From: a virus
Virus record (IMG/VR): IMGVR_UViG_3300034980_000576
Location: 1-64,000 of that record
Length of the DNA stretch: 64,000 bases
Reading direction: 5' to 3' (one strand)
Position numbers and translations under genes: made by a program. Shown piece after piece: positions 1,286-28,236 of this stretch; positions within the stretch are counted from its first letter, which is position 1; each line of letters starts with the position of its first letter. Under the pieces are notes generated by a model. That model saw only the letters and a program-made list of their open reading frames with translations, was not told where the DNA came from and made no database searches.

Positions 1286-1531
1286 ATGAAATATTTAGTA
1301 TTATTTATGCTCTCTGGCGTTGCATATGCCGATGACACAAAAGAAGAGCCAAAAGTTGTTTATAAACAAAAGACTGAGATTGACTTTGAAAGCGTAGATG
1401 TGGTTGGAGAGCTTGTTAAACCACAAGGTTCTCTGGTTCTTGATAGAAAGAGAGCAAAGTTTAATTCAATGGTATGGATCAGAGCCGACTTTGACGATGA
1501 AATGGATAAATCCGTGGAGGAGGTTAAGTGA
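1286..1531 (+). CDS. Secreted CglF-like protein, 81 aa
   Basis: ATG 1286 is preceded by GGAGG. Residues 1-15 (MKYLVLFMLSGVAYA) form a signal peptide with an AYA|D cleavage site. The mature part is a 66-residue soluble domain with the elements EIDFESVDVVGELVKPQG, DRKRAKFNSM and IRADF, ending SVEEVK. This pattern resembles, from memory, small periplasmic proteins of Myxococcota, including the adventurous gliding motility protein CglF. The match is suggestive only. It ends in a GTGA overlap with the next gene. If right, it marks the host group and suggests action in the host periplasm. Confidence 0.5.
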   Translation: MKYLVLFMLSGVAYADDTKEEPKVVYKQKTEIDFESVDVVGELVKPQGSLVLDRKRAKFNSMVWIRADFDDEMDKSVEEVK

Positions 1532-1560
1532 AACTCCTACTTGAAAATTGGCGAAGATAT
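1528..1560 (+). repeat. Duplicated leader-coding sequence, copy 1
   Basis: These 33 bases match 2397-2429 at 31 positions (differences: first base G/A and base 29 G/A). Both encode MKLLLENWR(R/K)Y at the N-terminus of unrelated proteins. The downstream sequences do not resemble each other, so the leader was copied as a unit. Confidence 0.8.
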
Positions 1561-2400
1561 CAAGGAGAACATGATTTTAATGTTCTCTGCGAGAATCATA
1601 CACGCGGACTAATAACGGACACAGAATTAGTAATGCTTTGGGAAAATCAGGTTAATAATGAACTTGACTTGTTACTCTCCGAAGGCGAAATTCTGGATGC
1701 TATTTCAATAGGTTATGAAAAAGGCAAACAACTAGTCGGCAACGCGGCGGCTAAATGGAACGCTGGAATTGAAGCGTGGGCGACATGGGAAGCAAATCTA
1801 TTAAACCAAGCATTTGAGCTTGCGATAAGAGTAAGCGAAACCTCTGCGTTAGAAAAAGCTGCCGCTGTGTTGAAGAAAGTATTGTCTACCATAGATAAAT
1901 TTTGTGAAGCGCATCCTACAATATGTAAGGTAGCAAAATTTATATTACTGATGGCGGTGATTTCTGCCGTTATAGCATTTTTTAGCTCTGAGGCTCAGGC
2001 AGCGGTGGAAGTTACTAAGTTTGACGGATCTCCAATACAATTGGGAGATGGTGGAATAACAGCGATGAAAGGTTTAATGGAGATAGCTAGCAGAGGAGAG
2101 GATCCAGAGCTGCAGCAGAGATATGTAGAAGCAATGCAGTGGTTAGAAACTGTCCACGCATCAGAAACAACAGTGGAGTTGGCAAAGGCTTCCGGTGACG
2201 GGGCCGAACTCTGTAAAATAACATTCAAAGCAATGAAGGACATGTTGCAGACAGGCGAAATACCGGGGCTTCAAAGTTTAATTAATATAGGCGAGAAAGT
2301 GGTAATAAAAACGAATACGGTAACCCAAGAAGTCTATGCCACAGGGAAAGCAACACAAGTCACGCATATTGAATGGCAGAGTCTAACAACATCAAAATGA
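1528..2400 (+). CDS. Putative internal virion protein with leader and membrane segment
   Basis: GTG 1528 overlaps the preceding stop and follows GGAGGAGG. The first 11 residues, MKLLLENWRRY, are nearly identical to the N-terminus of the next gene at protein and DNA level, like a shared targeting peptide. Candidate (L/I)xE cleavage sites of the T4 prohead-protease type follow (LCE|N near residue 22, LSE|G near 52). Residues 60-130 are helical. Residues 135-152 form a hydrophobic segment ending in SSEAQA|A, which looks like an internal signal peptide. The C-terminal half (160-290) has no known motif. Likely packaged in the head and delivered to the host envelope; this is inference from the leader and membrane segment. 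Confidence 0.6.
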   Translation: MKLLLENWRRYQGEHDFNVLCENHTRGLITDTELVMLWENQVNNELDLLLSEGEILDAISIGYEKGKQLVGNAAAKWNAGIEAWATWEANLLNQAFELAIRVSETSALEKAAAVLKKVLSTIDKFCEAHPTICKVAKFILLMAVISAVIAFFSSEAQAAVEVTKFDGSPIQLGDGGITAMKGLMEIASRGEDPELQQRYVEAMQWLETVHASETTVELAKASGDGAELCKITFKAMKDMLQTGEIPGLQSLINIGEKVVIKTNTVTQEVYATGKATQVTHIEWQSLTTSK

Positions 2401-2429
2401 AACTCCTACTTGAAAATTGGCGAAAATAT
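2397..2429 (+). repeat. Duplicated leader-coding sequence, copy 2
   Basis: Second copy of the 33-base leader-coding unit (31 of 33 bases identical to 1528-1560), here fused in frame to a HAD-type phosphatase domain. Confidence 0.8.
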
Positions 2430-3095
2430 ATAAACGAAGAGCACGAACCCATCACAACCCTTCGTATCTTCGACTTCGATGAAACAATAGCCCATACGAG
2501 GTCAGAAACGCGCGTTAAAGCCCCCGACGGCACAGAAGCGACCCTACGTGACCAACAGGAGTTTGAAGAGTATATGAAGGCTGCAGCGGCTAAGGAAGGC
2601 ATAGAGACTTTCGATCCCGTACGAGATTTACAGGACATCGGCTACGATATCGATTTGAGCGACTTCTCGATTGTTAAAGATCCGGCTGAAATAATAATTG
2701 TAACAGATATGTTGAAAGCTTTTCCAGAGAACTCAAAAACATATATTTTGACAGCAAGGAGAGGGACATCGATCGGGCCAATTCTTGATTATCTCGATGA
2801 GATTGGCGTTGATTCCTCGCAAGTTAGAGTTATGGCGACACAAGGAGAATCCAAAGGCGATGTAATGGTTGCAATGATGAAAAACAAGATTATGGACAAT
2901 GGGAAATCCAATATTAATCTCATCGAATACTACGAAGATTCTGAAAAGAATATTAAAGATGTACAACTGAAAGTATGTAACAATAAAGAACTAGAACAGA
3001 TTAAACCAGAAGATTTCGAATTAGTTATCCACAAAGTTGTTGGATTTGACGTCGGCAACGATCGCGAGTATAAAATAGAGACGCTCGGTTGCTGA
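2397..3095 (+). CDS. HAD-superfamily phosphatase with N-terminal leader peptide
   Basis: The start is ATG 2397 (ATGA overlap with the preceding stop), not the in-frame ATG 24 bases upstream. Residues 1-14 (MKLLLENWRKYINE) form the shared leader, ending in INE|E, an IxE site of the kind cut by T4-like prohead proteases. The HAD fold follows: motif I FDFDET (25-30, nucleophile D26), motif II Thr in LTAR (about 119), a GESKGD Lys segment as motif III, and the acidic motif IV YYEDSEKN (about 178-185). HAD enzymes transfer phosphate through an aspartyl intermediate; phage relatives act on nucleotides or RNA 3'-phosphates. The substrate cannot be told here. The leader suggests it may be packaged in the capsid. 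Confidence 0.75.
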   Translation: MKLLLENWRKYINEEHEPITTLRIFDFDETIAHTRSETRVKAPDGTEATLRDQQEFEEYMKAAAAKEGIETFDPVRDLQDIGYDIDLSDFSIVKDPAEIIIVTDMLKAFPENSKTYILTARRGTSIGPILDYLDEIGVDSSQVRVMATQGESKGDVMVAMMKNKIMDNGKSNINLIEYYEDSEKNIKDVQLKVCNNKELEQIKPEDFELVIHKVVGFDVGNDREYKIETLGC

Positions 3096-3128
3096 TTTAA
3101 AACTATTTAAATTGATGGAGATTTTATC

Positions 3129-3452
3129 GTGAATGAATCAAACGGGTGGGAAACCTACTCAAAATTAGTGTTGCAACAACTAGAAACCATGTCGACAGGC
3201 ATCGAAGGTTTACGCAGTGAGCTTCAAGATGTAAAAGGACAACTAACTGAACTTAAAGTAAAAGAAGACAGAGTTCAAGATTTGAAAGCATGGAAAGAAA
3301 AGATGGACGATGTTGCTTCGCCCCCTCAATTAAAAACAGCGCTTATAGAGATCGAAGAACTTAAAATCTTTAAAACGAAGGCAGTTACAATGTTTATGGT
3401 AGTACAAGCAGCTATGGGTGTTGCTGTAGCTTTTGCTTTAGAGATATTTTAA
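3129..3452 (+). CDS. Coiled-coil protein with C-terminal membrane anchor
   Basis: GTG 3129 is the only in-frame start near the GATGGAG Shine-Dalgarno (3113-3119). The 107 residues are a long coiled coil (about 10-60, heptads through RSELQDVKGQLTELKVKE), a second helix, and a C-terminal hydrophobic segment (about 88-107). This build, a cytoplasmic coiled coil with a tail anchor, recurs in T4-like marine phages near lysis or membrane genes; the function is not established. It stands alone between two putative control regions. Confidence 0.6.
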   Translation: MNESNGWETYSKLVLQQLETMSTGIEGLRSELQDVKGQLTELKVKEDRVQDLKAWKEKMDDVASPPQLKTALIEIEELKIFKTKAVTMFMVVQAAMGVAVAFALEIF

Positions 3453-3460
3453 AAATATTG

Positions 3461-3490
3461 TTGACAAATAATATAAATTTGTTATATAAT
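3461..3490 (+). promoter_or_regulatory. Sigma70-type promoter (TTGACA-18-TATAAT)
   Basis: Consensus -35 TTGACA (3461-3466) and consensus -10 TATAAT (3485-3490) separated by 18 bp. The -10 box overlaps ATG 3489, so that ATG cannot be on the transcript; the predicted start of transcription (about 3496-3498) coincides with ATG 3495, giving a leaderless mRNA. Confidence 0.75.
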
Positions 3491-3494
3491 GAGT

Positions 3495-3749
3495 ATGTAC
3501 AAGTTTAAAAAAGGAGATTTAGTGGGGATAAAACACCCCCTAAGTGCCAGCTGTCCCCTAAAAACAGGAGTTGTTGTCACGGAGACAGAATATAACGTTG
3601 TAATTCAATGGGTGTCATATGATAAAACTTTTTTTATGGAAAAACAAGGTGATATTTTTGAAGAACTCAATAAATCTTATCTTTTATCAAGACAGTCCTA
3701 TCATCGCTTAAACGAGAAAGCTTCGTTGTTCTTATTAAACTCTAGTTAA
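3495..3749 (+). CDS. Small SH3/KOW-like protein, probably leaderless
   Basis: I place the start at ATG 3495 because ATG 3489 lies inside the -10 hexamer. The N-terminus MYKFKKGDLVGIKHP with the later TGVVVTETEYNVVIQW strand pattern is typical of small SH3-like beta-barrels of the KOW type that bind RNA or protein. About 84 residues. The predicted transcript has no 5' leader and no Shine-Dalgarno, so translation would start on the terminal AUG. Function unknown; the lone strong promoter suggests early expression. Confidence 0.6.
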   Translation: MYKFKKGDLVGIKHPLSASCPLKTGVVVTETEYNVVIQWVSYDKTFFMEKQGDIFEELNKSYLLSRQSYHRLNEKASLFLLNSS

Positions 3750-3752
3750 AAC

Positions 3753-4067
3753 ATGGGCTACAATAGCGATGAGGCTTCGAAGAGAATAAAACTAGCTGTC
3801 AAACAGCTCAATGGTTCTGCCATCGATGAAACCGACGAAGACGGCAACGCCGTGGAATTATTACCAGAGATAGGTATAGGTTCCGGAGAAGGCTATCTCC
3901 ATTGTTATTGCCCCGGAAAGAAAAGGTTCATTAAAATTTCGAAAGGACAGAAGGCATACATAATTGATAATATGGATAATGATAAAGAAAAATGTTTAAT
4001 ATATACTTGGGATGGACATCTGGTAGAGATCTCCATGGATGAGATTTTTCCAATAGGATTTGATTGA
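3753..4067 (+). CDS. Hypothetical protein, 104 aa
   Basis: It starts 3 bases after the preceding stop. A helical N-terminus (about 1-20) is followed by a beta-rich region with two nearby Cys/His residues (LHCYCPGKK) and alternating strands. It ends in a TGATG overlap with the next small gene. No clear Shine-Dalgarno, so it probably depends on translation of the upstream gene. Family not recognised. Confidence 0.6.
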   Translation: MGYNSDEASKRIKLAVKQLNGSAIDETDEDGNAVELLPEIGIGSGEGYLHCYCPGKKRFIKISKGQKAYIIDNMDNDKEKCLIYTWDGHLVEISMDEIFPIGFD

Positions 4068-4219
4068 TGCTATTTAAGTTTGGAAAATTGTGGAAATCAA
4101 TAATATTGCTTTTAGCGACATGGGGATTCTATCTAATTTTTGATTTTGAATTTACTGTGATCACTTTGCTTTCCCTCCTCCTAGTATCAAATTTAGACGA
4201 TAGGGATTTTTTGCTTTAA
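4067..4219 (+). CDS. Small membrane protein, 50 aa
   Basis: ATG 4067 overlaps the preceding stop (TGATG). The peptide has a basic start (MLFKFGKLWK), a hydrophobic stretch (about 11-25) and a second one (about 29-41), and an acidic tail (NLDDRDFLL). The topology suggests a hairpin of two short membrane helices. It fills the gap between two genes exactly and keeps the operon's overlap style, which supports it as a gene. Function unknown. Confidence 0.55.
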   Translation: MLFKFGKLWKSIILLLATWGFYLIFDFEFTVITLLSLLLVSNLDDRDFLL

Positions 4220-4230
4220 AACCACTACTT

Positions 4231-4446
4231 ATGGTGGTGGGAACAAGAAAAAGACGATATTACAAACCGTCTTCAACGGGTGTTGCGGCGCCGGTTAGCG
4301 GTTATATTGTGAAATGGCTCGGTACCGAGTCCAGTTCGCAAGTTAATAATGATGGCCCATACAACGACATAGAAGAAGCAGCACAAATCTTACAAGCTTA
4401 TTTGAAATCTGGGATATGTAGCTGGATGGTGAGCTATGATGACTGA
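4231..4446 (+). CDS. Hypothetical protein, 71 aa
   Basis: ATG 4231 begins a small basic protein (MVVGTRKRRYYK) with a central SGYIVKWLG strand pair and a helix containing EEAAQILQAYLKSG. The C-terminus reads into the next gene, with an 8- to 11-base overlap. No convincing Shine-Dalgarno. Not recognised. Confidence 0.55.
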   Translation: MVVGTRKRRYYKPSSTGVAAPVSGYIVKWLGTESSSQVNNDGPYNDIEEAAQILQAYLKSGICSWMVSYDD

Positions 4447-4693
4447 TGGGGGTGTTTTCGGCGCGATACAGTCGGAAAACCTTAACATTGGTGATATGGT
4501 AGAGTGGACTCGATGGGATGAAGACGCCAAGAGGTGGACGAGCAACTACGGCATTTTAATTAAAATAGAAAATAAGTTAAAATCTAATAGAATAGTTTCA
4601 GTATCAACTGTAAAGCCTATAAACGAGCCGCATCAGGTGGTAGAATTGTTTACTATAAGTCTACAGCCGATGGCTAGCACAATACGTGCTTGA
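4436..4693 (+). CDS. Small beta-rich hypothetical protein, 84-85 aa
   Basis: Starts at ATG 4436 or ATG 4439, overlapping the preceding gene. The sequence NIGDMVEWTRWDED, then YGILIKI, then a final VELFTISLQP, has the strand spacing of an SH3-like barrel. The type recurs in marine myoviruses from memory, with no known function. A 50-base gap with a repeated AAACTATTTA element follows. Confidence 0.55.
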   Translation: MMTDGGVFGAIQSENLNIGDMVEWTRWDEDAKRWTSNYGILIKIENKLKSNRIVSVSTVKPINEPHQVVELFTISLQPMASTIRA

Positions 4694-4744
4694 TATAGTT
4701 AGTTTTATATCGTTTTGAAACTATTTAGTGTTGTGGAGTGAGAT

Positions 4745-5692
4745 ATGATTAATTATCCTGATATGTTACAGCCTCTAATTGATAAGTTTTTGCCCTTTGC
4801 TCAGAAAAGAATGGGATTCTCTAAACCGCCGCGTTTATTTGTTCGCAGTGACAGCAAAAATGCATGCGATCCATTAGGTAAGACGGCTCATTACGACTCA
4901 GATAATCATTCGATAACTCTGTATGTCACAAAGCGTCATCCTAAAGATGTCCTGCGTTCTTTATCACATGAGTTGGTACACCACACACAGAATTGTCGCG
5001 GAGATTTAAATAACATATCTACCTCTCCGGGATACGCCCAAAGCGATGATCATATGAGAGAAATGGAGCGTGAAGCATACGAACTTGGAAATATGTGCTT
5101 TCGCGATTGGGAAGATGGTATAAAAAATACTATTTATTACGAACATCTACAAAAAGGAGAAATTAAGATGTCTACTAAAGATTGGAAAAACAAAGAATTA
5201 AGAACTATTTTATCTGAAGCGTGGGGCTTCAAGTTCAACACCCTGCAAGAATTTGACGAGTTCAACGGTACCGGAGAGATCCAAGAAGTCTCTATCGAAG
5301 ATCCCGATGCGCCCACAGAAGAAACCGCCGGCGAAGCCAGCGATAAGAGAGAAAAGGCAAATTTAGAGGAAGCTGGAGAGATCGACAGGGGCGCCCTTAA
5401 AGAAGATAGCGAAGCAGAGGAGACGCACCATTATGGAGAAGATGAGAGTGCCGACAAGAGAAAGGAAGACGATCTAGAGCATGACGAAGATTCTACAAAG
5501 CATCATCTAGATGGTATCGAGCACCACCTTGACGCTCTCCGAAAGGATATGCGCTATGATCAGGATCACGAATGGAGCAAGAACGAGTCAGTAGAGGCAA
5601 CCGACGGCGAGGAACTTGAAGAAGACGCCAAACCTGTCGATCCCTTAAGAGAAGCAATAAAGGCGCTTTTAACCAAGCACTTAAAGGGCTAA
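4745..5692 (+). CDS. HExxH metallopeptidase fused to acidic scaffold-like tail
   Basis: Residues 1-135 form a zincin domain: SHELVHH holds the zinc motif H75-E76-L-V-H79, and MEREAYELG near 107-114 offers the third ligand and glutamate. Residues 142-315 are unlike a peptidase: highly charged, helical and acidic, with an EELEEDAKPVDPLREAIK end typical of head scaffold or core proteins. A strong internal Shine-Dalgarno (AAGGAG, 5154-5159) precedes in-frame ATG 5168, so the tail is probably also made alone. In T4 a prohead protease gene lies beside a scaffold gene and carries related internal products; this arrangement is similar in logic but the peptidase is a zincin rather than the T4 gp21 serine protease. 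Confidence 0.65.
   Translation: MINYPDMLQPLIDKFLPFAQKRMGFSKPPRLFVRSDSKNACDPLGKTAHYDSDNHSITLYVTKRHPKDVLRSLSHELVHHTQNCRGDLNNISTSPGYAQSDDHMREMEREAYELGNMCFRDWEDGIKNTIYYEHLQKGEIKMSTKDWKNKELRTILSEAWGFKFNTLQEFDEFNGTGEIQEVSIEDPDAPTEETAGEASDKREKANLEEAGEIDRGALKEDSEAEETHHYGEDESADKRKEDDLEHDEDSTKHHLDGIEHHLDALRKDMRYDQDHEWSKNESVEATDGEELEEDAKPVDPLREAIKALLTKHLKG
5168..5692 (+). CDS. Nested product: acidic scaffold-like protein, 174 aa
   Basis: In-frame internal start ATG 5168 within the metallopeptidase gene, with AAGGAG at 5154-5159 and 8-base spacing, better than the signal of the full-length gene. The product begins MSTKDWKNKELRTILSE|AWGF, where LSE|A matches the T4 prohead-protease cut rule (L/I)xE|(A/G/S). 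The rest is acidic, His- and Glu-rich and helical. I infer a head core or scaffold component; expression alone or as a fusion cannot be settled from sequence. Confidence 0.5.
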   Translation: MSTKDWKNKELRTILSEAWGFKFNTLQEFDEFNGTGEIQEVSIEDPDAPTEETAGEASDKREKANLEEAGEIDRGALKEDSEAEETHHYGEDESADKRKEDDLEHDEDSTKHHLDGIEHHLDALRKDMRYDQDHEWSKNESVEATDGEELEEDAKPVDPLREAIKALLTKHLKG

Positions 5693-5787
5693 ACTCATGA
5701 CTGGTAAGTACAAAAATTGAACTTAAGAAGTCACGAAATCGTTTTATACAAAAACTATTATTATCACACAACACCAAGGAACACACA

Positions 5788-6039
5788 ATGTCATTAGATT
5801 CACAATGGCGAGATTTTCTTACCGAGAGTCTTGATGAAAAAAACATCTTTACCTATATTCAGGGACTCCAAGAAATAATTTCCAATCTTAAACCCAAGAC
5901 AATCACGGAAAGAAGAAGGCTTCAGCTTGCAAAAAACCATTTGCGAGAAGTGAAGCGCTTTGCCAGACGAATGGATAACGACATGAATGTGCTTCAGGAA
6001 AAACTTAATATTTTAGAAGAATCGCAAGGGAACGAATAA
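5788..6039 (+). CDS. Small helical protein with leader-like N-terminus
   Basis: ATG 5788 follows a 95-base intergenic space. The N-terminus MSLDSQWRDFLTE|S resembles the leader of the genes at 1528 and 2397 (a W-R core) and ends in LTE|S, a T4-type prohead-protease site. The rest is two long basic helices (ERRRLQLAKNHLREVKRFARR) and a coiled-coil end. It overlaps the next ATG by 1 base. Likely a head-associated or core protein; inference only. Confidence 0.55.
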   Translation: MSLDSQWRDFLTESLDEKNIFTYIQGLQEIISNLKPKTITERRRLQLAKNHLREVKRFARRMDNDMNVLQEKLNILEESQGNE

Positions 6040-8231
6040 TGGCGAAAGCTAACACTCACCTTACCCACCTTGAAGAGTTGGTACTTACCCAAGGCCCAGT
6101 GGGCTATAAGATGGCTAGAGCGTTCCTTCTGAAGCTTTTACAGACTCTTAAGGGTAACACCAAGTCTAGCATACAAACGTCCGTCAAATGGGACGGAGCG
6201 CCGGCGATCTTTGCTGGTATTAATCCTGAGAACGGCAAGTTTTTTGTAGGTACCAAGTCAATCTTCAACAAGGTGCCAAAAATCAACTATACCGAAGAAG
6301 ATATTATTAAGAACCATGGGCATGCGCCGGGACTTGTCGATAAGCTAACAAAAGCATTAAAGTATCTCCCATCTCTGAAAATTAAAAACATCCTGCAGGG
6401 TGATTTCATGTTTGACGACGGAATGATTGATACAGTCGACATTCAGGGAGAACCTCACTATCGATTCAAGCCAAATACGATCGTGTATGCGGTGCCTGTT
6501 AATTCAGAGTTAGGTGAGCAAATCGGCAAGTCTAAATTTGGTATTGTGTTTCACACCACATATGATAGTCTTGATAGCGGAGCCAGCTTTGGTGCTGACG
6601 TTTCTAACCTTAGAGAGACGCCGGGCGTGTGGTTTGACGATGCATTCTTTACAGATGATACTGGCATTGTTACATTAACAGAAGAAGAAGAATCAGAAAT
6701 TGTACAATTAGTAAAACAAGCTGATTCTGTAAATGAAAAAATAAACTACGATGATCTGCCATCTGCTTTTTTGAACATCTATATTAACAGTGAAATTAAG
6801 AGCGGCAGTTTTCTAGAAAATCCCGAGAAGTCCTTCGAAGGATTCATCAACTGGTATTCTCAAAGAATCCAGAAGAAAATTAACAATTTAAAAAGCGATA
6901 AGGGTAAACAAAGAGCAACCGAGAATGCTCAACAAGCGTTGCAATCCTTTAATGATAAAAAAGAAGATATACTTAATATTTTTAAAGTGAGTCGGCTTTT
7001 GTTTGAGGCTAAAAACATTTTTATTGAAAAATACAACAACGCTGTTTACAACACCAAACACTTTGTCGACAATGGATCTGGAGATCTAATTGCTAGCAAT
7101 CCGGAGGGTTATGTAGCGGTTGATCACAGGGGAAATGGTATCAAATTTGTAGATCGCTTAGAATTCAGTAGAGCAAATTTTGCAATTGATAAGGGTGATA
7201 AATTTTCGGCACCATTAAGTGAAGAAGATGAATATGATTCAGAAGCAGATGATTGGTATGAGCTAAGACATCAAATGGATCAGGAACTCGGAGAACCAGA
7301 AGAAGATGAAGATGACGATCCAGTAGTTGACGCTAGCTATCCAAAAACGGTTGCCATTGTACCCGGAGCTTTCAAGCCTCCGCACAAAGGGCATGCAGAC
7401 ATGGTAAGGCGGTATGCTACCGGTGACGGTGTTGAGAAAGCTGATAAAGTATATGTCGTTATTTCAGCGCCTATGAACGCCCAACGCACGATCCGTGCAC
7501 GCATTGATGGAAAGCTGGTTGATATACCCATCGACGCGAATAATGCAATTGCCCTATGGAAAAAGCTCTTTCCAGAAGTAGCAAATCTTCCGGAAGTTGA
7601 GTTTGAAATAGCGCCGTCGGACATGAGATCTCCAATAACTTTGGCTTTTAAATATATAAGTGACGAAAGCCCACTTCCACTTAATGACGGAGATAGAGTA
7701 ATGTTAGGTGCTAGTGATAAACCTGATACCAAGGGAGAACCCGATTGGTGTCGGTGGAATAGCGTTGACAAAGAAAAGCATGTTAAACCTGGAATTGAAC
7801 TTTTATGTGGCGAACAGTACGCTGTTCCTGCGCTAGCGCGTGGCGGTGATAAAGATTTCAGCGCTACAGACATGCGGGATCTAATATCGGATTTGGCAGA
7901 GGATCCGGACAACAAAGAAGCATATGCAGAGTTGATTGAATTTGTGCCGGCTGATAAGATTCCAGCGCTGCTTGACGAGCTTCTGCCCGAAGGGAGCAGG
8001 AAAGATATAGAAGAGAATTCTATGGCGTCTGCCGGTGCGGCAGGAGGACATGTGGATGTGGCGCGCCCTTTGGGATCTACATTGGTTAAACGAGGGGCAA
8101 GTACGCCCGGAAAACGTGATAAGCCCAAAACCAAGAAAAAGAAAACAAAGAAAGAATATATAGACTTAGGCTTACTTGCCGAAGTTATGGAACTAATTAT
8201 AGAAAGAGGCATTAACAATGAATCCAAATGA
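6039..8231 (+). CDS. DUF6267-like, ligase-like plus HxGH nucleotidyltransferase fusion
   Basis: The 730 residues have two enzymatic parts. The N-terminal part carries the ordered motifs of covalent nucleotidyltransferases (DNA/RNA ligases): motif I KWDG (K50-G53), a GDF element near 121, EGYV (356-359, motif IV) and IKFVDR (368-373, motif V with K369). An acidic linker follows (about 395-430). The second part begins VPGAFKPPHKGH (441-452), the HxGH signature of cytidylyl/adenylyltransferases, with a long domain to about 640. The C-terminus is basic (KPKTKKKKTKKE). Such proteins (DUF6267 type) occur in T4-like marine phages with no known role. The ligase-like reading is my own motif reading. 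Confidence 0.65.
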   Translation: MAKANTHLTHLEELVLTQGPVGYKMARAFLLKLLQTLKGNTKSSIQTSVKWDGAPAIFAGINPENGKFFVGTKSIFNKVPKINYTEEDIIKNHGHAPGLVDKLTKALKYLPSLKIKNILQGDFMFDDGMIDTVDIQGEPHYRFKPNTIVYAVPVNSELGEQIGKSKFGIVFHTTYDSLDSGASFGADVSNLRETPGVWFDDAFFTDDTGIVTLTEEEESEIVQLVKQADSVNEKINYDDLPSAFLNIYINSEIKSGSFLENPEKSFEGFINWYSQRIQKKINNLKSDKGKQRATENAQQALQSFNDKKEDILNIFKVSRLLFEAKNIFIEKYNNAVYNTKHFVDNGSGDLIASNPEGYVAVDHRGNGIKFVDRLEFSRANFAIDKGDKFSAPLSEEDEYDSEADDWYELRHQMDQELGEPEEDEDDDPVVDASYPKTVAIVPGAFKPPHKGHADMVRRYATGDGVEKADKVYVVISAPMNAQRTIRARIDGKLVDIPIDANNAIALWKKLFPEVANLPEVEFEIAPSDMRSPITLAFKYISDESPLPLNDGDRVMLGASDKPDTKGEPDWCRWNSVDKEKHVKPGIELLCGEQYAVPALARGGDKDFSATDMRDLISDLAEDPDNKEAYAELIEFVPADKIPALLDELLPEGSRKDIEENSMASAGAAGGHVDVARPLGSTLVKRGASTPGKRDKPKTKKKKTKKEYIDLGLLAEVMELIIERGINNESK

Positions 8232-9000
8232 AGAGAAATCTCTTAGAGAAAATATAAGACATCTAATAAGACATGTCAAGCAAAAAAGCATCAATGAAGA
8301 GGTACAACTGAGAGGCTTAATTAATCAATTTATTGATATCGAGGTAAACTCCGGACAACTCTCGGAAGGGCAGACACCAGATGTATCCCCAACTCCCAAT
8401 AAATCTACCGGCATTAATGTCCTAGAAGAACTCCTTAAGAAGATTATACCAGTTTTAGAGGTAGATTACAAGTCCCTAACAACGAATAACGAACAAAGAG
8501 AATCATTCAGGGCGCATGTCTTAAATGCCGTGGTTAATTCCTTAACACCTGCACAAATTAATAATGATGCAGCGGACGAGAAAGAGGATTTAGACGAGGA
8601 AATTGAGATTAATGTTGGCGGAAACACTGATGATGATAAGTTTATCGATATCCGGACTGATGCCGAGAAATCTGCGGCTGACGAAGAAGAGGAAGAAGAT
8701 CCGAGAGATACATTTGGTGCAGATGTTGAAGGAGACAAGACGGGTAGGAATGTTGCCTATCAATCCTATAAAAAAATAGAAACTAGTGTTATTGATTCAT
8801 ATGAGCTTCTCTCCGATCCTGAAGATCAAGAGCTGTTCTACGATTATTTGATTGCCAACCTCAAGCTTTATTTTGATAAGTTTGAAGAAGAATTAGCAGA
8901 TTCTGTAGAAGAACCTACAAATCAAGCCTACGATATGGCAAAATCAGGTGAGGCTGGAGAATTAGAATCCGGCGAAGAAGATCTAGAATTGGAGTTATAG
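8218..9000 (+). CDS. Acidic helical structural/scaffold-like protein, 260 aa
   Basis: ATG 8218 overlaps the end of the preceding gene by 14 bases. The N-terminus has two basic amphipathic helices (EKSLRENIRHLIRHVKQK) ending in SINE|E, an IxE cleavage-like site near residue 27. The middle is very acidic (residues about 120-165, EEEEEDPRD), followed by a helical domain with SYKKIETSV and a final Glu-rich tail. Composition and location among head-like genes suggest scaffold or core. No enzyme motif. Confidence 0.55.
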   Translation: MNPNEEKSLRENIRHLIRHVKQKSINEEVQLRGLINQFIDIEVNSGQLSEGQTPDVSPTPNKSTGINVLEELLKKIIPVLEVDYKSLTTNNEQRESFRAHVLNAVVNSLTPAQINNDAADEKEDLDEEIEINVGGNTDDDKFIDIRTDAEKSAADEEEEEDPRDTFGADVEGDKTGRNVAYQSYKKIETSVIDSYELLSDPEDQELFYDYLIANLKLYFDKFEEELADSVEEPTNQAYDMAKSGEAGELESGEEDLELEL

Positions 9001-10518: not shown

Positions 10519-10772
10519 TGTGGAAAGTATATAAATGGGATGGTGAATACATCCAAGGTGAATTTATAAGTGAACACTCCACAGAAAAAGCTGCGTTAGG
10601 AAAAGCAAAAAAGAAGATTAATTATTCAAGAGCCACAAAGAGCAAACTGCCGACATATAAAGTCCGCGGAGAAACTGTAATTTGGCTAGATAAGGAAGAT
10701 GGAACTCCAATAGGGATGATCATCAAAAAAACAAGAAAGAAAAAAGGGGATGCCATGGTTTCGACAGGGTGA
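10518..10772 (+). CDS. Small basic hypothetical protein, 84 aa, ending inside tmRNA
   Basis: ATG 10518 overlaps the preceding stop by 1 base. The protein starts MWKVYKWDGEYIQGEFISEH, has a beta-strand TYKVRGETVIWLDKEDGTP and a Lys-rich end (KKTRKKKGD). Its stop at 10770-10772 lies 27 bases inside the tmRNA 5' end, so the last 8 or 9 codons encode tmRNA stem sequence. It may be a nucleic-acid binder by charge. Processing of the tmRNA from a longer transcript would cut this message. Confidence 0.6.
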   Translation: MWKVYKWDGEYIQGEFISEHSTEKAALGKAKKKINYSRATKSKLPTYKVRGETVIWLDKEDGTPIGMIIKKTRKKKGDAMVSTG

Positions 10773-11088
10773 GAAAGAGGAATAGTGCAAGCAGTCAAAC
10801 GTACCAGCAGACTTAAAACGCAGATACAAAACATAATTGCTAATAACAATAATCACTTCGAATCTGTCCGCTTAGCGGCTTAATCGGGAGGCTGATTAGA
10901 GCCTTCTTTCCAATCTAATCAAAACAACAGATAAGTTGTAAAATCAAACCATCTAAGGCAACAGGACGGTAAGCTTTAGATTATAGCCGCCTACCCATGC
11001 AGTGAGGGGATATAAAAACTGATAAGCTTGTGAATGACTACAATTAGACTTATTCTGGACGCGGGTTCGACTCCCGCCGTCTCCACCA
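10746..11088 (+). ncRNA. ssrA: tmRNA (transfer-messenger RNA, one-piece)
   Basis: The 5' end GGGGATG, with the typical following GGTTTCGACAGGG, pairs with the 3' CGTCTCC of the acceptor (7 pairs, two G-U). The T arm is GCGGG-TTCGACT-CCCGC, and CCA is encoded (11086-11088). The tag reading frame starts at GCT 10839 and ends at TAA 10881-10883, giving ANNNNHFESVRLAA, with the LAA end recognised by ClpXP in bacteria. tmRNA rescues stalled ribosomes and marks their products for degradation. It needs SmpB, which is not seen in the window and is presumably the host's. Confidence 0.93.
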
Positions 11089-15231: not shown

Positions 15232-15537
15232 ATGTCTATACAAGAAGAATTGGAAAAAGCAATAAGCGAGGAAGATCTACACACAAACGATATGTTGGCT
15301 ATGGCAGTTGATAAAGATACTGAACTTAAAAACATGTTGGTTGAATATGTTGGAACAAAATTTGAGAAAGAAGAAGTAACGGTTAATATGATAGCTGAAA
15401 CCATGGCTCACGAGTTCCCTGAATTTGTTTATGCATTTGCTGAAGAAAACTTTTTACGTGGATACCAACTAGGATTAGACGATGCATATAAATCATTTGA
15501 TAGAAAAGCAACAGAAACTGCAGCAGAAAAACACTGA
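15232..15537 (+). CDS. Conserved phage hypothetical protein, 101 aa
   Basis: Follows a promoter and AAAAGGAG. An acidic helical N-terminus (EELEKAISEEDLHTND) and an all-helical remainder ending in KATETAAEKH. Helical hairpin pattern with AETMAHEFPEFVYAFAEENF, recalled from marine T4-like phage genomes. No function known. The last 56 bases overlap the next gene. Confidence 0.6.
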   Translation: MSIQEELEKAISEEDLHTNDMLAMAVDKDTELKNMLVEYVGTKFEKEEVTVNMIAETMAHEFPEFVYAFAEENFLRGYQLGLDDAYKSFDRKATETAAEKH

Positions 15538-16180
15538 TTTCTACACTGCTACTGGAATACATGTGTATTTCAAGGAACCACCAGCGTCCGATATCGATGT
15601 TGAAAGTGTCATTTCTAAAATTGAATCCACGATCCCTATTCATCTCTTAGAGGAGATTGAAATGATTATTGTGGGGTGGTTTGATGAATTTGAAGAAAGA
15701 GATATAAATGCTTTCTATGATTCGGGAACAGTTTATGTTTCAAATTTACAAGATGACAATAAAGATTTATATGATGATATAGTTCACGAGATAGCTCACT
15801 CAATCGAGTCCCCCCATGGATATTACTTATACGGTGATGAAAAAATAAAAAAAGAGTTCCTATCTAAGCGCACAAGATTACATGATATTTTGTGGAACAT
15901 GGGATTCAAAGCTCCAAAATCGTTTTTTAGGGAAGTAGAATTTAATCAAGAATTTGATGACTTTCTTTATAAAAAAATTGGATATGATACATTGTCTCAA
16001 GCTCTCCAAGGACTCTTTATCAATGCATATGCCGCCACCTCACTCCGAGAATATTTTGCAACGGCATTCACAGAATATTATTTAGATAGTAATCATAATT
16101 TCTTAAAAAGTGTCTCTCCAGCAGCGTATGAAAAAATAATTGGTGCACAAAAGCCTGAATCTCTTGACGACAGTGACTGA
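15482..16180 (+). CDS. HExxH metallopeptidase-like protein, 232 aa
   Basis: Residues 98-106 read DDIVHEIAH with the zinc motif H102-E-I-A-H106; EYFATAFTEYYL near 190-201 provides the Glu of a gluzincin-like site. The layout recalls the lethal-factor-like metallopeptidase families found in many T4-like phages. Substrate unknown; such phage enzymes may process a phage or host protein. Start ATG 15482 overlaps the preceding gene by 56 bases, with no good Shine-Dalgarno, so a later start is possible. Confidence 0.65.
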   Translation: MHINHLIEKQQKLQQKNTDFYTATGIHVYFKEPPASDIDVESVISKIESTIPIHLLEEIEMIIVGWFDEFEERDINAFYDSGTVYVSNLQDDNKDLYDDIVHEIAHSIESPHGYYLYGDEKIKKEFLSKRTRLHDILWNMGFKAPKSFFREVEFNQEFDDFLYKKIGYDTLSQALQGLFINAYAATSLREYFATAFTEYYLDSNHNFLKSVSPAAYEKIIGAQKPESLDDSD

Positions 16181-16996: not shown

Positions 16997-18280
16997 ATGC
17001 AAAAAAAGAAGATTCTGGTTTTATCAGATCACCCCCTTTCACCATCCGGAGTGGGAACTCAAACAAAATATTTCATCGAAGCACTTTTAAAAACTGGTAG
17101 ATATCAGTTTATTTGTTTAGGTGGGGCAGTCAAACATAATGATTATACCCCCGTAATGGTAGAGGGTTGGAATCAAGATTTTCGAATCATCCCTGTAGAC
17201 AATTACGGAAACCCGGAGATTATTCGTTCGATACTCCAGAAAGAGAAGCCGGATTTACTGTGGTTCATGACAGATCCGCGTTTCTATGATTGGCTGTGGG
17301 AAATAGAAAACGAAGTTAGATCATACATTCCGATGGTATATTATCACGTATGGGATAATTTCCCTGTTCCAATGTTCAATAAAATATGGTATGATTCTAC
17401 CGATGCCGTTGTCTCCATATCAAAGGTTACAAATGAGATTGTGAAGACGGCATCCCCAGACTCTTATGCTGGAAGAATTCCACATGCAGTAAATTCATCA
17501 GTTTTTTATAAATTCAAAGAATCTGCCGATATTGCACGTGCAAAGGACATTAAAACCCAAATCATAAATACTAGTAAAGAATTTACAAGTCCCGATAAGA
17601 AGGTGTTCTTCTGGAACAATAGAAACGCACGCCGAAAGCAGAGCGGCACTCTTATTTGGTGGTTTAAAGAATGGTTGGATAAAGTCGGACACGATAAGGC
17701 TACTCTCCTTATGCACACAGATGCGAGAGATCCCCATGGACAAGATTTGCCACATCTTATTGAACATTTGGGAATTCAAGACGGACAAGTGTTGCTATCT
17801 ACCAACAAGGTTTCACCACAGGAATTGGCTGGATTTTATAATGCCGCCGATTTTACAATTAATATATCAGATGCCGAAGGTTTCGGCTTGGCAACACTAG
17901 AATCTCTTTCCTGCGGAACGCCCATAATCGTTAATATGACTGGCGGCTTGCAAGAGCAAGTCACTGACGGGCAGAATTGGTTTGGGTGGGGCGCTGTTGC
18001 AGCCAGTAAGTCAATTATTGGCTCGCTTCAAGTACCATACATCTACGAAGATAGAATGGGAAAAGATCAGTTTGAAAAAATGATGAACAAGGCGCTTAAA
18101 TGCAGTAAGAAGGCGTATAATAATATGTCTGAACTTGGAATGCAACATATCGAAACAAATTACAATTTTGAAGATTTTGAAAAAGCTTGGGTAACCAAGA
18201 TTGATGAAATCATGGAAGAAAATGGTTCTTGGGATACAAGAAAAAATTATGCTCGTTGGGAATTAAAGGAGATAGCATGA
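16997..18280 (+). CDS. GT4-type glycosyltransferase
   Basis: 427 residues, GT-B fold. N-terminal domain: SDHPLSPSGVGTQTKY, a Ser/Gly-rich start typical of GT4. C-terminal domain: the EX7E motif in DAEGFGLATLESLSCGTP (E294 and E302) that binds the donor nucleotide sugar. Transfers a sugar from a nucleotide donor to a glycan or protein, probably in the cytoplasm. First of three consecutive glycosyltransferases; its stop overlaps the next start (ATGA). Confidence 0.85.
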   Translation: MQKKKILVLSDHPLSPSGVGTQTKYFIEALLKTGRYQFICLGGAVKHNDYTPVMVEGWNQDFRIIPVDNYGNPEIIRSILQKEKPDLLWFMTDPRFYDWLWEIENEVRSYIPMVYYHVWDNFPVPMFNKIWYDSTDAVVSISKVTNEIVKTASPDSYAGRIPHAVNSSVFYKFKESADIARAKDIKTQIINTSKEFTSPDKKVFFWNNRNARRKQSGTLIWWFKEWLDKVGHDKATLLMHTDARDPHGQDLPHLIEHLGIQDGQVLLSTNKVSPQELAGFYNAADFTINISDAEGFGLATLESLSCGTPIIVNMTGGLQEQVTDGQNWFGWGAVAASKSIIGSLQVPYIYEDRMGKDQFEKMMNKALKCSKKAYNNMSELGMQHIETNYNFEDFEKAWVTKIDEIMEENGSWDTRKNYARWELKEIA

Positions 18281-19518
18281 GAAAGAATATTTTACTTAAG
18301 GGTCCAATCCTTACACGAAGCGGATATGGAGAACAGTCGCGCTTTGCAATGCGTGCACTACGATCACGCCCAGACTTATTTAACGTCTTTATACAACCCC
18401 TGCAGTGGGGAGCCACCTCTTGGATAAATGATATTAATGAGGAAAGAACGTGGATCGATGATGCAATTGAAAAAACAATAGGATATATCCAACAAGGTGG
18501 CAAGTTCGACGCGTCTCTGCAAATTACTGTGCCTAATGAGTTTGAAAATCTTGCGCCCCTTAACATAGGATATACCGCCGGCATCGAAACCACGAAGGTA
18601 GCTCCACAATGGCTGCAACACTCAAACAACATGAAGAAATTGATAGTAGTTTCGAATCATTCCAAAAATGTATTTGAAAATACAGTATACCGAGCCACCA
18701 ACGAAGACACGGGCGAAGAATTAGACTATGGACTGCAGGTGCCTGTAGACGTAGTAAACTATCCCGTTAAACATTATGATGATTTACCAGAGCTAGATCT
18801 TGACTTAGATTGCGAATTCAATTTTCTATTGATATCTCAGTACGGCCCTAGAAAGAACATAGCCAACACTATAAAATGGTTTATCTCAGAATTTAAAGAC
18901 GAGGAAGTCGGATTTGTGGTTAAAACCAACATGGCTAAAAATTCCCTTATCGACAGAGTGAACACGGAAGCGAAGTTTAGAAAGATTTTAGCTGATGTAC
19001 AAGACTCAGCCGATCGTAAATGCAAAATATATTTGTTGCATGGTGATATGACTGACGAAGAAATTCACTCCTTGTACACTCATCCTCAAATAAAGGCTTT
19101 TGTTTCGTTACCCCACGGCGAGGGTTTTGGATTGCCTCTTTTTGAGGCTGCATATTCTGGGATCCCCGTTGTTACTGTTGGTTGGTCGGGACAATTAGAC
19201 TTTTTAGTTGATGATGAAGGAAAAGAAAGGTTTTATAACGTTGCTTTCGATATCAACAATGTCCAAAAGGAAGCTGTGTGGGACGGCGTGATTCAAGCAG
19301 ATAGCAAGTGGGCATATGCCCGCGAAAACTCAGCAAAGAAGCAGATGAGACAGTGCTACGAAGATGTGACAAACAACAATATTGAAAGTGTTGGTGCTCA
19401 TATCAATTTCTTAAATGATAAATTTGATGAAGAAAAACTTTACGCTCAGTTTGTTGATTCTGTGAAATCTGTCACCGGAGAGTCGGTGGCGCAAGAAGCC
19501 AAGGTTATTGTTCTGTGA
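18277..19518 (+). CDS. GT4-type glycosyltransferase
   Basis: The start is ATG 18277, overlapping the preceding stop with AAAGGAG upstream, not TTG 18229. 413 residues. The N-terminus MRKNILLKGPILTRSGYGEQSR carries the GT4 Gly-rich loop. The C-terminal EX7E motif is EGFGLPLFE (E282 and E290) followed by AAYSGIPVV. Donor and acceptor are unknown. It ends in a GTGA overlap with the third glycosyltransferase. Confidence 0.85.
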   Translation: MRKNILLKGPILTRSGYGEQSRFAMRALRSRPDLFNVFIQPLQWGATSWINDINEERTWIDDAIEKTIGYIQQGGKFDASLQITVPNEFENLAPLNIGYTAGIETTKVAPQWLQHSNNMKKLIVVSNHSKNVFENTVYRATNEDTGEELDYGLQVPVDVVNYPVKHYDDLPELDLDLDCEFNFLLISQYGPRKNIANTIKWFISEFKDEEVGFVVKTNMAKNSLIDRVNTEAKFRKILADVQDSADRKCKIYLLHGDMTDEEIHSLYTHPQIKAFVSLPHGEGFGLPLFEAAYSGIPVVTVGWSGQLDFLVDDEGKERFYNVAFDINNVQKEAVWDGVIQADSKWAYARENSAKKQMRQCYEDVTNNNIESVGAHINFLNDKFDEEKLYAQFVDSVKSVTGESVAQEAKVIVL

Positions 19519-21527
19519 AGAAAATAGTCTATTGCGCTCAATTCTTAGATCTATCTGGTTACGGAATTGCCGCCAGAAGATATCTTGATGCGCTAGACTT
19601 GGCAATTTCAGCCGAAGATGTAGATTTAAAAATATATACGACAGTTGCCGCCGGAGTTCAATTAAACTCATTGTCCCATAGGGAACAGGAGCTAATTACC
19701 AAGTACTCTTTTAAGAATGATGCAGCAATAGCAGAGTTTATCCAAGACAACGACTACGAGTGCATTTGGCACATGCCTACTCCAATGCCGCTATTTGCAG
19801 ATAGTAGGTTTTCCACCACGGAGGGGATCCAAACTCCCTCCCTATCTAGAATTATTAAAGCTGCAAAGAGAAATCATCATCTCGTAGTGTGGGAAACTAC
19901 CGATATATCCACAGAATGGAAAGAATCCCTAGAATGGTTTAAACCTCACAGCATTATTACTGCATGCAAGATGAATGTAGAGTTATATTCAAAATATTGC
20001 GAGAACGTGCTTCTAGCGCCGCACCCAATATATGATGTAGATTCAATCAATTCACGCCCCCTCACTCTCCCGCAATCCTTGGAGGATAAATTTGTTATAT
20101 TCTCAATGTCTCAATGGACACACAGAAAAGGATTTGATAAGCTTATAGCCGCCTTTACCGCTGAACTCGGCGATAAGGAAGATTGCCTCTTTATACTTAA
20201 GACATTCGAATCTGCGGAAGCTGGAAGTGCCGAACAGATAGCAAACACCGTTAAAAGTATTCGAGCTGTTGTTAACAAAGAAGAAAAGAAAAACAACATC
20301 TTGCTATTGCCATCTTATATCGCCGAATCGAATATTAAATGGCTATATGAAAACAGCGATATGTTTGCTTTATTGCCGCGTGGCGAAGGGTTTGGTTTGA
20401 CTATTTTTGAAGCAATACTGAACGGGGTACCCGTGATGGTGCCAGATCAAGGCGGCCATTTGGATTATATCGACTCAGAGAATAAATTCATGGTAAGCGG
20501 CATGTGGGATAGTTGCATTGTAAATAATCCCGTGTATTCGCTTGATAGCGAGTGGTACGAACCAAACATCGCTAGCGCCAGACAAAAACTACGTTTAGCG
20601 TACAATATGTGGAAAGAGAACACACTCGCCACTGCCGGCACTCAATCAAAGGAGAAATTGTTGAATAATCCTGATTATGATTCTAAAAAAATAGGGCAAG
20701 ATATAATAGATTTTGTGACACAGCTTCCTGTGACGGCTCACCATCCAAAGGTTCAGAAAAGAAATTTACTTAAAAAGCAGATCTCGTTGACATCGGATTT
20801 GCAAGCGCAAGTGGATATTTTGAAGGATGCCTATGAAGGCGACACTGCATACATTTTAAACTGCGGCCCAAGCTTAAGTCAATATTCTGAAGAATTCCTT
20901 AATGAGTTTTTGGCAGATAAGCTGACAATTAGTGTAAAACAAGCATACAGTGCATTTAAAAATGTTACTGACTTTCATTTTTTCAATTGCGCGAATTTGC
21001 CGATGCCGACATGCGCACCCCTGCTGCAACACTATGAATACGATGAGGAATCTCGTCCGATCATTATCGCTAGCAGCAATTATGATTTAGGGCAGCGCTG
21101 GCATCCGTGTCAAAAACATGATTTATATTTTAAAATTCCGATAAGAACTGAAATAAACAATGAATTTGTTACTATCACTAAGAAATTTGATGATTTTTTG
21201 CTTTCTAATTCCTTGACAAGACCATGCGGACCGGGTATAATGTTAGAAACAGTACTCTTTCTTACTGTTCACCTTGGAGTGAAGAACATAGTAGGCTTAG
21301 GTTGGGATTTAACCAACGATAAAGTCAATGAAGACACATACCAGCATTTTTACGGAAATACACAAAATTTATTTAATCGCGGCGACGTCCTTGACTGGGA
21401 AATTGAAGCCGGAAGAGAATCTTCAAAAGATGTGTATTATTGGCTAAAAGATCTTGGTATAAATCTTCAACTAGTTTCCGACATAAGCACTCTATATGAT
21501 GGCATAGAAAGAATAAACTTAGATTAA
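19515..21527 (+). CDS. GT4 glycosyltransferase fused to MptE/DUF115-like domain
   Basis: 670 residues. Residues 1-415 are a GT4 enzyme: N-terminal DLSGYGIAARR and EX7E motif EGFGLTIFE (E291 and E299). Residues about 440-670 form a second domain with a CGPSLSQ loop near 450 and CGPGIMLETVLFLTVHLG near 570, then LGWDLTND. These match the fold shared by DUF115 (Maf-type flagellin glycosyltransferases) and GT42 sialyltransferases. Maf proteins transfer nonulosonic acids onto protein. With the NeuA and NeuB genes alongside, this protein could add two different sugars. GTG start in a GTGA overlap. Confidence 0.7.
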   Translation: MKKIVYCAQFLDLSGYGIAARRYLDALDLAISAEDVDLKIYTTVAAGVQLNSLSHREQELITKYSFKNDAAIAEFIQDNDYECIWHMPTPMPLFADSRFSTTEGIQTPSLSRIIKAAKRNHHLVVWETTDISTEWKESLEWFKPHSIITACKMNVELYSKYCENVLLAPHPIYDVDSINSRPLTLPQSLEDKFVIFSMSQWTHRKGFDKLIAAFTAELGDKEDCLFILKTFESAEAGSAEQIANTVKSIRAVVNKEEKKNNILLLPSYIAESNIKWLYENSDMFALLPRGEGFGLTIFEAILNGVPVMVPDQGGHLDYIDSENKFMVSGMWDSCIVNNPVYSLDSEWYEPNIASARQKLRLAYNMWKENTLATAGTQSKEKLLNNPDYDSKKIGQDIIDFVTQLPVTAHHPKVQKRNLLKKQISLTSDLQAQVDILKDAYEGDTAYILNCGPSLSQYSEEFLNEFLADKLTISVKQAYSAFKNVTDFHFFNCANLPMPTCAPLLQHYEYDEESRPIIIASSNYDLGQRWHPCQKHDLYFKIPIRTEINNEFVTITKKFDDFLLSNSLTRPCGPGIMLETVLFLTVHLGVKNIVGLGWDLTNDKVNEDTYQHFYGNTQNLFNRGDVLDWEIEAGRESSKDVYYWLKDLGINLQLVSDISTLYDGIERINLD

Positions 21528-21539
21528 CAAGGAGAAAAC

Positions 21540-22400: not shown

Positions 22401-22408
22401 AAGTTCAG

Positions 22409-24707: not shown

Positions 24708-25081
24708 ACTCACCCCCAAATAATCACATTCACCCTCCTATGAAATATGTGGAAAAGGGATGGGGATATGAAAAATGGATTGTTAATAAAAAAGAATACT
24801 GCGGTAAGCTCTTATTTTTTAAAGAAGGAAAACAGTGTTCTTGGCATTATCACAAGAAGAAAGATGAAGTGTTCTATTTACAATCTGGAAAAATGATTGT
24901 TAGATATAGCGAAGGAGATAATCCCGAGCTAGCGAAGCAGATAATTTTAGAGCCGGGACAAAACTTTTATGTTTATACCGGGCTTCGCCACCAAATGTAT
25001 GCCCTAGAAGACTCAGAGCTATACGAATTCTCAACCCAACATTTTAATAGCGACAGTCATAGAATTGTTAATGGAGATTAG
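24701..25081 (+). CDS. Cupin-fold sugar enzyme or binding protein
   Basis: 126 residues. Cupin metal motif 1 in GKQCSWHYHKKKDEVFYL (HxHxxxxE-like) with an ILEPGQNFYVYTG turn and a LRHQMYAL motif 2. Cupins in glycan clusters isomerise or epimerise nucleotide-linked or phosphorylated sugars. The start ATG 24701 overlaps the preceding stop by 7 bases; the stop TAG shares its G with the following GTG start. Confidence 0.75.
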   Translation: MVDSPPNNHIHPPMKYVEKGWGYEKWIVNKKEYCGKLLFFKEGKQCSWHYHKKKDEVFYLQSGKMIVRYSEGDNPELAKQIILEPGQNFYVYTGLRHQMYALEDSELYEFSTQHFNSDSHRIVNGD

Positions 25082-28233: not shown

Positions 28234-28236
28234 ACA

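Follow-up and report, generated by a model that had tools for sequence, protein, structure and literature searches.

Bases 1-64000 of the 99,321-base record of an uncultivated T4-like virus (IMG/VR record IMGVR_UViG_3300034980_000576; hereafter, the window is this 64,000-base stretch and the contig is the whole record) encode proteins that begin with short leaders ending in (L/I)xE, and these leaders are very probably capsid-targeting propeptides of the T4 type. The initial annotation had proposed this for five starts, 1528, 2397, 5168, 5788, and 8218, all of which are present at these positions. The proposal is supported by a gp21-type protease gene in the same contig, by a match with the T4 capsid-targeting sequence (CTS) at the residues tested in T4, by the swapping of leaders as modules on the same cargo, and by virion enzymes of the cyanophage S-CREM2. 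We infer that the tagged proteins are packaged, cut, and injected by this virus.

Resemblance to the T4 capsid-targeting sequence

The CTS of T4 IPIII, ten residues in length, is sufficient, with gp21 cleaving after L/I-x-E (PMC9026906, PMC10229621); residues 4 and 7 serve targeting, and residues 8 and 10 serve processing (PMC9026906). Two classes of leader occur in the contig, namely about nine of class A (MKLLLENWRKFLNE/x, the slash marking the predicted cut here and below) and about ten of class B (MKITKSQLKQIIKEE...). When aligned at the Glu, Y4-x-x-F7-I8-x-E10 of T4 corresponds to W8-x-x-F/Y11-L12-x-E14 of class A. As in T4 IPII and IPIII (MKTYQEFIAE/A, cut by gp21), a removable N-terminal leader with an aromatic-x-x-aromatic-(L/I)-x-E pattern appears to be shared by unrelated proteins, and an S77 protease and T4-type head genes lie in the same genome. 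Given the short shared leader, its (L/I)-x-E end, its aromatics, and these head genes, class A is predicted to be a CTS of the T4 type. Unlike the T4 CTS, class A comprises 14 residues with an N-terminal LLLEN extension, Trp replaces Tyr4, and synonymous sites of the leader DNA are frozen; the marine viruses also differ from T4 in having up to approx. 20 tagged genes per genome and more than 100 cargo clusters. Class B ends in (L/I)-x-E but has no aromatics, and by analogy it would probably do the same via an aliphatic helix.

A profile trained only on marine leaders ranked T4 gp61.1 first, IPIII sixth, and IPII seventh of 1669 candidate starts. Searches of cultured phages with the leader peptides by tblastn gave nothing useful, as expected for 20-residue queries; scans with a profile, with the motif, and for shared N-termini de novo were used instead. 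The blind shared-N-terminus search in T4 recovered only the IPII/IPIII and Alt pairs, homing endonucleases aside; these served as positive controls, and their recovery validates the approach. A literature search found no paper naming these leader peptides, and a megablast search with the first 20 kb of the window found no match among cultured phages.

By reference to residues 4 and 7 of the T4 CTS, the aromatic-x-x-aromatic helix (W8, F/Y11) would bind the prohead scaffold core, and the tagged protein would be built in. The S77 protease, for which both motif and gene are observed, would cut after the Glu of (L/I)-x-E, such that the leader would leave the head and the mature protein would stay. 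DNA would then be packed around these proteins, which, following the T4 precedent, would enter the next host along with it; the product of gene 2397, a HAD phosphatase, would be delivered in this manner. The observed attachment of the tag to many unrelated proteins would be explained by the leader alone being needed.

The prohead protease and head genes

The initial annotation made its reading depend on a prohead protease of the gp21 type, and one is indeed encoded: Peptidase_S77 (PF03420, the T4 gp21 family) matches at 97793-98401 of the contig (E = 1.5e-32 in Pfam). A T4-type portal gene (5.3e-78) is located near it, a terminase is also encoded, and the contig ends before the major capsid gene is reached. 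In related contigs of approx. 200 kb, the protease lies approx. 100 kb from the class A cluster, the same spacing as here; thus, the contig is probably about half a genome. Every leader contig of 125 kb or more has S77 (18/18), compared with 3/6 controls in the same size range (p = 0.01); at 60 kb or more, it is present in 26/49 leader contigs versus 5/24 controls (p = 0.01). Leader contigs below approx. 125 kb often have no protease gene; we read these as incomplete and do not count them against the tag reading. A gp23-type capsid protein was found in 13 of the 14 genomes tested, the sole exception being the truncated contig studied here. In six leader viruses and the phage immuto, the major capsid proteins carry LLRE/A, VLRE/A, IVSE/A, and similar sites that align with the T4 gp23 site FLTE/A, and [LV]xE is the shared form at the aligned position; therefore, the specificity of the S77 protease appears to be conserved.

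Leaders in the window

The leader at 2397-2438 (+ strand; MKLLLENWRKYINE), with a predicted cut after Glu14, has the top profile score in the contig. It precedes, at 2439-3095 (+), a putative HAD-superfamily phosphatase (motif FDFDETIAHT ... TAR ... YEDS) that was recognised by alignment, by Pfam matches in relatives, and from a structural model. The family has invariant FDFD..T, TAR, and D..S..N, in line with the HAD superfamily (a DxDxT motif I, a T/S motif II, an acidic motif IV, and a Rossmann-like fold). Pfam assigns DUF2608 to 26/36 relatives and HAD_SAK_1 to 5/36, with no match in the 2397 protein itself. The model (mean predicted local distance difference test score of 90) comprises a helix of low confidence at residues 2-12, a loop in which the predicted cut lies, and, starting at residue 21, a HAD fold modelled with confidence; its matches in the Protein Data Bank are weak (template-modelling score of about 0.4) and include HAD phosphatases and 5'-nucleotidase III among methyltransferase matches.

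The gene starting with GTG at 1528 shares 31 of 33 bases with 2397 over the first eleven codons, as originally reported, and the two proteins are unrelated after residue 11. Its class A leader (MKLLLENWRRYQGE; 1528-1569, +) opens a 290-amino-acid protein whose body (1570-2400, +; homologues in 5 loci) contains one hydrophobic segment at approx. residues 137-155. The usual cut motif at residues 12-14 has been lost (YQGE/H, with neither L nor I at position 12). Two relatives (L213 and L188) carry MKLLFENWRKFLKE/A (FLKE/A) at the usual site, and later sites, VLCE/N and LLxE/G, are kept among the relatives. The (L/I)xE end reported for all five starts thus stands for 2397 (INE/E), 5168 (LSE/A), 5788 (LTE/S), and 8218 (INE/E), and not for 1528.

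The class A-type leader at 5788-5826 (+; MSLDSQWRDFLTE/S) has the third-highest profile score in the contig and is followed at 5827-6039 (+) by a conserved basic/helical body of 70 amino acids, which shares up to 87% identity with orthologues at 37 loci; its (L/I)xE survives a one-residue insertion in orthologues (FLTE, FLLNE, FLINE, FILGE). The predicted propeptide at 5168-5218 (+; MSTKDWKNKELRTILSE/A) precedes an acidic, fast-evolving body (5219-5692, +), judged from its sequence and orthologues to be a candidate prohead-core protein; conservation lies mainly in the first approx. 40 residues, and [LI]xE is kept in approx. 25 distinct orthologues (LLSE/A, LLKE/A, ILAE/A, LISE/A). Similarly, a predicted helical propeptide of 27 residues ending in SINE/E (8218-8298, +) precedes an acidic body (8299-9000, +; orthologues in 28 loci), also a candidate prohead-core protein, and its orthologues end in KKLNE/E, IVNE/Q, or IVKE/Q, with [LIV]xE kept as its position shifts. 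Retention of the motif in the 5168, 5788, and 8218 orthologues despite insertions and deletions fits selection for a protease site and is the pattern that such selection would be expected to leave. The five starts, grouped together in the initial annotation, are of different kinds: 1528 and 2397 have the same copied leader, 5788 shares its core (WRDFLTE), and 5168 and 8218 have conserved N-termini of their own (37 and 28 loci, respectively) that occur only on their orthologues.

The propeptide claim is strongest for gene 2397, reasonable for 5788, and uncertain for 1528. Of the two deliveries foreseen in the initial annotation, that of the HAD phosphatase is the best supported, and that of the 1528 membrane protein is the weakest part because the usual cut site has been lost. 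Delivery and a role as processed components of the prohead core are equally likely for the 5168 and 8218 proteins. In a broader form of the core role, which seems unlikely, the leader-bearing proteins or a subset of them (class B and the products of 5168, 8218, 96924, and 98391) would be core or scaffold proteins that are shredded and expelled, with nothing delivered. The acidity of the 5168 and 8218 proteins, the location of 96924 and 98391 on either side of the protease gene, the several conserved sites in 1528 relatives, and a class B-like protein between the portal and protease of immuto are all in line with such a fate, which in T4 befalls gp22, gp67, and gp68, which are cut into pieces (PMC9026906). 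The class A cargo, in contrast, consists of folded enzymes with conserved catalytic motifs and a single site just before the fold, and enzymes with such leaders have been recovered by mass spectrometry from S-CREM2 virions.

Leader classes in the contig and in IMG/VR

The initial annotation suggested looking for further leaders in the rest of the genome, and bases 60001-99321 of the contig were read for them. Class A was found at six more genes, all outside the window: 77077 (MRHQLIMENWRSFLIE/A), 85064 (MKLIFENWRKHLVE/Y), 85686 (MKQLFENWRKCLNE/V), 86747 (MKQLFENWNRYLNE/G), 96924 (MKIILERWDSYLIFE/E), and 98391 (...INERWDRYLKE/E). Class B leaders start at ten (77721, 78383, 82643, 85376, 85942, 86468, 87835, 88127, 88514, and 91244; e.g., MKITKSQLKQIIKEEL). 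A tubulin/FtsZ-like gene (PF00091, 2.3e-8) at 83925-85067 of the contig, outside the window, immediately precedes the second leader cluster. With the profile, genuine leaders reach 13-24 bits, and nearly all other starts score below 8, except for two overlapping minus-strand frames at 11-15 bits; the scan for shared N-termini gave 32 pairs, versus 1 when segments from the interior of these proteins were compared.

IMG/VR was searched with degenerate DNA patterns for both classes, and the resulting counts are lower bounds. Class A was found on at least 264 proteins in at least 106 unrelated clusters, and class B was found on at least 297 proteins in at least 214 clusters. The class A search set no requirement after residue 11; among the matches listed, L/I/V occupies position 12 in 97/107 and Glu occupies position 14 in 91/107, and conservation vanishes from position 15 on, Glu14 being the last conserved residue. 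The aromatics of class A, Trp8 with Tyr/Phe11, were wholly (Trp) or partly (Tyr/Phe) set by the search pattern. Representatives of 90 class A clusters give the consensus MKLLxENWRKYLxE, with none beyond it. For class B, I12 was required and position 14 was free; Glu14 was present in 56 of the 57 matches listed, a second LxE is common at approx. 20-22, and L8 and I11, rather than aromatics, stand at the targeting positions. In 278 of 279 class A leaders, fewer than 60 residues of open frame lie upstream of the leader Met. The class A pattern matched once in 257 Gb of prokaryote genomes, compared with at least 119 stretches in IMG/VR, and gave no match in 45 control virus contigs.

An alternative is that the leader, as a localisation helix, directs proteins elsewhere, for example to a membrane or a phage-built compartment, with (L/I)xE being incidental. 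Some phages with tubulins build compartments, and the contig encodes a tubulin/FtsZ-like protein. Nonetheless, this alternative is very improbable, as few positions are conserved as well as the Glu and the L/I two residues upstream of it, which persist through insertions and deletions, S77 is present in all large leader contigs, and the motif marks virion proteins in S-CREM2.

Most cargo has no Pfam match. The matches for class A include zeta-toxin-type kinases, NUDIX, protein kinase, AAA kinases, the CCA-adding enzyme, tRNA-ligase phosphodiesterase, RNase T, HAD, NT5C, and GNAT; those for class B are YkuD, HNH, and DUF6321.

Exchange of leaders on the same cargo

The HAD domain of 2397 was searched without its leader, and relatives were taken without any leader requirement. 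In other viruses, these relatives have varied N-termini, including MKLLLENWRQFLNE/S, MLKKWKQFLSE/S, MKNFNNIWRNYLTE/T, MDRRLLKEYIRSVIVE/G, and MILLRDLLNE/D, as well as approx. 17-residue leaders ending in ...SLLVE/S and a family of approx. 35 residues ending in ...FAFNSLQE/A. [LIVM]xE lies within 16 residues of the fold in 36 of 38 distinct N-termini of standalone HADs versus 0 of 27 in long open reading frames, against a background of 18% (Fisher p = 3e-16, relatedness of the sequences being ignored). In a second cargo family (IYCDMDGVLVDF), 40 of 44 members have the leader-end motif, with WxxF/Y(L/I)xE standing behind extensions of variable length (MNDKWKKYLSE/D, MLKEWRSFINE/E, MKKELGAWRNYLAE/Q), and neither aromatic was required by the search. 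In both families, the leader is exchanged as a unit while the cargo stays the same, and such natural swaps are consistent with the leader sufficing for head entry.

The same HAD domain occurs without a leader in long open frames, mostly on virus contigs of 25-65 kb (L614-L682 loci), which is possibly another route for the same activity. Large contigs with standalone HADs (at least 180 kb) have S77 in 4/4 cases; it was present in 0/14 of the fused-HAD contigs tested, which are smaller. Pfam searches on the open reading frames with fused HADs were uninformative.

Leaders in cultured phages

The virion proteome of the cyanophage S-CREM2, determined by mass spectrometry (PMC10665884, Table 3), comes closest to showing that packaged enzymes of a marine T4-like phage are marked by such leaders. 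The proteins detected begin with MKDFDSFLEE/F (SAM hydrolase), MKRFDAFLTE/E (APH-like kinase), MKNFSSFLTE/A (cytidylyltransferase), and MKDLHSFLTE/Q (gp13), and a Cas9-like protein has FASFMAE/A at residues 19-25; the kinases and cytidylyltransferases in these virions thus carry the motif seen in leaders of class A cargo. The pattern [WYF]xx[FYWL][LIVM]xE is found within the first 24 residues of 3/13 virion non-structural proteins and 0/89 other open reading frames (p = 0.0017). The words targeting, leader, and propeptide do not occur in the text of that paper (PMC10665884).

Comparable N-termini, MLGNFDSFLSE/N, MKQFCNFLAE/V, and MKKFSAFLSE/A, are found on annotated hypothetical and cytidyltransferase genes of Vibrio phage KVP40 (37733 and 39187) and Synechococcus phage Syn9 (149735), and they are likely to be unrecognised capsid-targeting leaders. 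The window itself encodes, at 6039-8231, a 730-amino-acid protein with DUF6267/phrog_455 and a nucleotidyltransferase-like segment (PGAFKPPHKGH) and no obvious leader; a similar segment also occurs in cyanophage cytidylyltransferases that begin with FxxFLxE leaders, one of which has been detected in virions. The cultured Flavobacterium phage immuto (MW353175), which has S77, carries class B-like leaders. Three further families of shared N-termini occur in this phage: MKKSQLRQIIKE... (102294, 102880, 113188, 123355), MENFDLKKFLVENKLT... (1803, 103806, 117631, 118632), and MKKQILSEQFKRMQ.LAGIITES (25061, 111675). A literature search for proteomics of immuto found none.

Frozen leader DNA

The class A leader is conserved at the DNA level as well. 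At 1528-1560 and 2397-2429 of the window, and at class A loci in IMG/VR, the leader DNA ATGAAACTCCTACTTGAAAATTGGCG is frozen at synonymous sites up to codon 8. Among leaders with LLL at residues 3-5, 96 of 126 use exactly CTC CTA CTT, for which approx. 0.2% would be expected from the Leu usage of the cargo; the Leu5 codon is CTT in 119/120, and Leu12 uses all six codons. The frozen block runs from the ATG to near codon 8. Two explanations were tried and rejected. A translational hairpin, in which CTCCT pairs with the ribosome-binding site, is not indicated, as AGGAG is present in few of the genes and shuffled sequences fold at least as strongly. A copied 5' cassette fails since no conservation across viruses is seen in the 40 bases that precede class A leaders, and the shared unit therefore starts at the ATG. 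Within the contig, the element ATGAATGGATTAGCAAC, with which the tubulin-like gene ends, recurs ahead of 85686, 85942, 86468, 87251, and, in part, 88127.

It is possible that recombination at the leader, or a signal at the nucleotide level, lies behind the frozen DNA. The contrast between the fixed CTC CTA CTT and the varied codons of Leu12 could even suggest that the shared element is a nucleic acid acting in translation or recombination at the gene start, with the peptide as a by-product. We consider this hardly credible: the peptide persists while its codons vary in MKLLM and MKLLF leaders and in class B, nothing but the (L/I)xE logic is preserved in other leaders on the same cargo, and a hairpin pairing with the Shine-Dalgarno sequence was not found, the folding energy not being below that of shuffled sequences.

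Points against capsid targeting and related systems

Several points weigh against capsid targeting. The class A and class B viruses, including this one, are known from sequence alone, and (L/I)xE is a short motif. Gene 1528 and its closest relative have no (L/I)xE ending at position 14, the targeting role of class B rests on analogy, and the frozen synonymous sites in codons 3-8 are not accounted for by protein function alone. Moreover, the S-CREM2 leader has the 10-residue T4 form and not the 14-residue class A form, and its motif is found on only a minority of the hypothetical virion proteins.

N-terminal head-packaging signals are known elsewhere. In the consulted excerpts of reports on the giant phages phiKZ and SPN3US and on phage P1 DarB (PMC5694885, PMC9024508), such signals are described, as for class A; the phiKZ and SPN3US propeptides are cut after Glu by a distant gp21 relative, although they have other motifs and a protease of another family (S80), and the DarB signal lies within 30 residues, with no consensus with the class A motif reported in those excerpts. 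Polyvalent proteins predicted to be injected (PMC5512222) include overlapping kinds of enzymes (2H phosphoesterase, NUDIX, GNAT, and ADP-ribosyltransferase); unlike the singly tagged class A cargo, they are fused in one long polypeptide. The fused HADs found here are leaderless (0/27), and their open reading frames are at most putative polyvalent proteins.

Other features of the window

A virus tmRNA with the tag ANNNNHFESVRLAA is encoded at 10746-11088 (+; Rfam RF00023, 116.8 bits; ARAGORN), and two genes for tRNA-Asn and one for tRNA-Gly are located close to it. A putative metallopeptidase at 15482-16180 has the zinc-site motif HEIAHS, its Pfam match being weak and below the cutoff. The region 16997-32123 is a large surface-sugar island with a glycosyltransferase (phrog_2170), NeuB-like synthases at 21540 and 25779 (the latter by sequence resemblance), a CMP-sugar cytidylyltransferase-like gene (25081), and dehydrogenase- and dioxygenase-like genes.

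Implications

The class A cargo, with its RNA/tRNA repair enzymes, kinases, NUDIX hydrolases, and acetyltransferases, plausibly suits the first minutes of infection. A more speculative and rather doubtful extension is that the heads of abundant uncultivated marine T4-like viruses serve as a general delivery vehicle for proteins, with a standard cargo slot at the DNA level. The frozen 24-base start ATGAAACTCCTACTTGAAAATTGG would then provide short homology for cargo swapping, and the injected enzymes in a virion, perhaps 10-20 different ones, would change over time and would include many for RNA/tRNA repair and signalling that might be used against host defence in those first minutes.

Virion purification, usually the only way to find injected phage proteins, cannot be done for most marine viruses. 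With a leader that is legible from the sequence, metagenomes would become catalogues of candidate injected proteins, many without a known family. The motif also predicts, from published genomes, which enzymes are packaged by cultured phages, and this could be tested on existing mass-spectrometry data. Finally, natural variants of the T4 tag would become available for loading proteins into phage heads.

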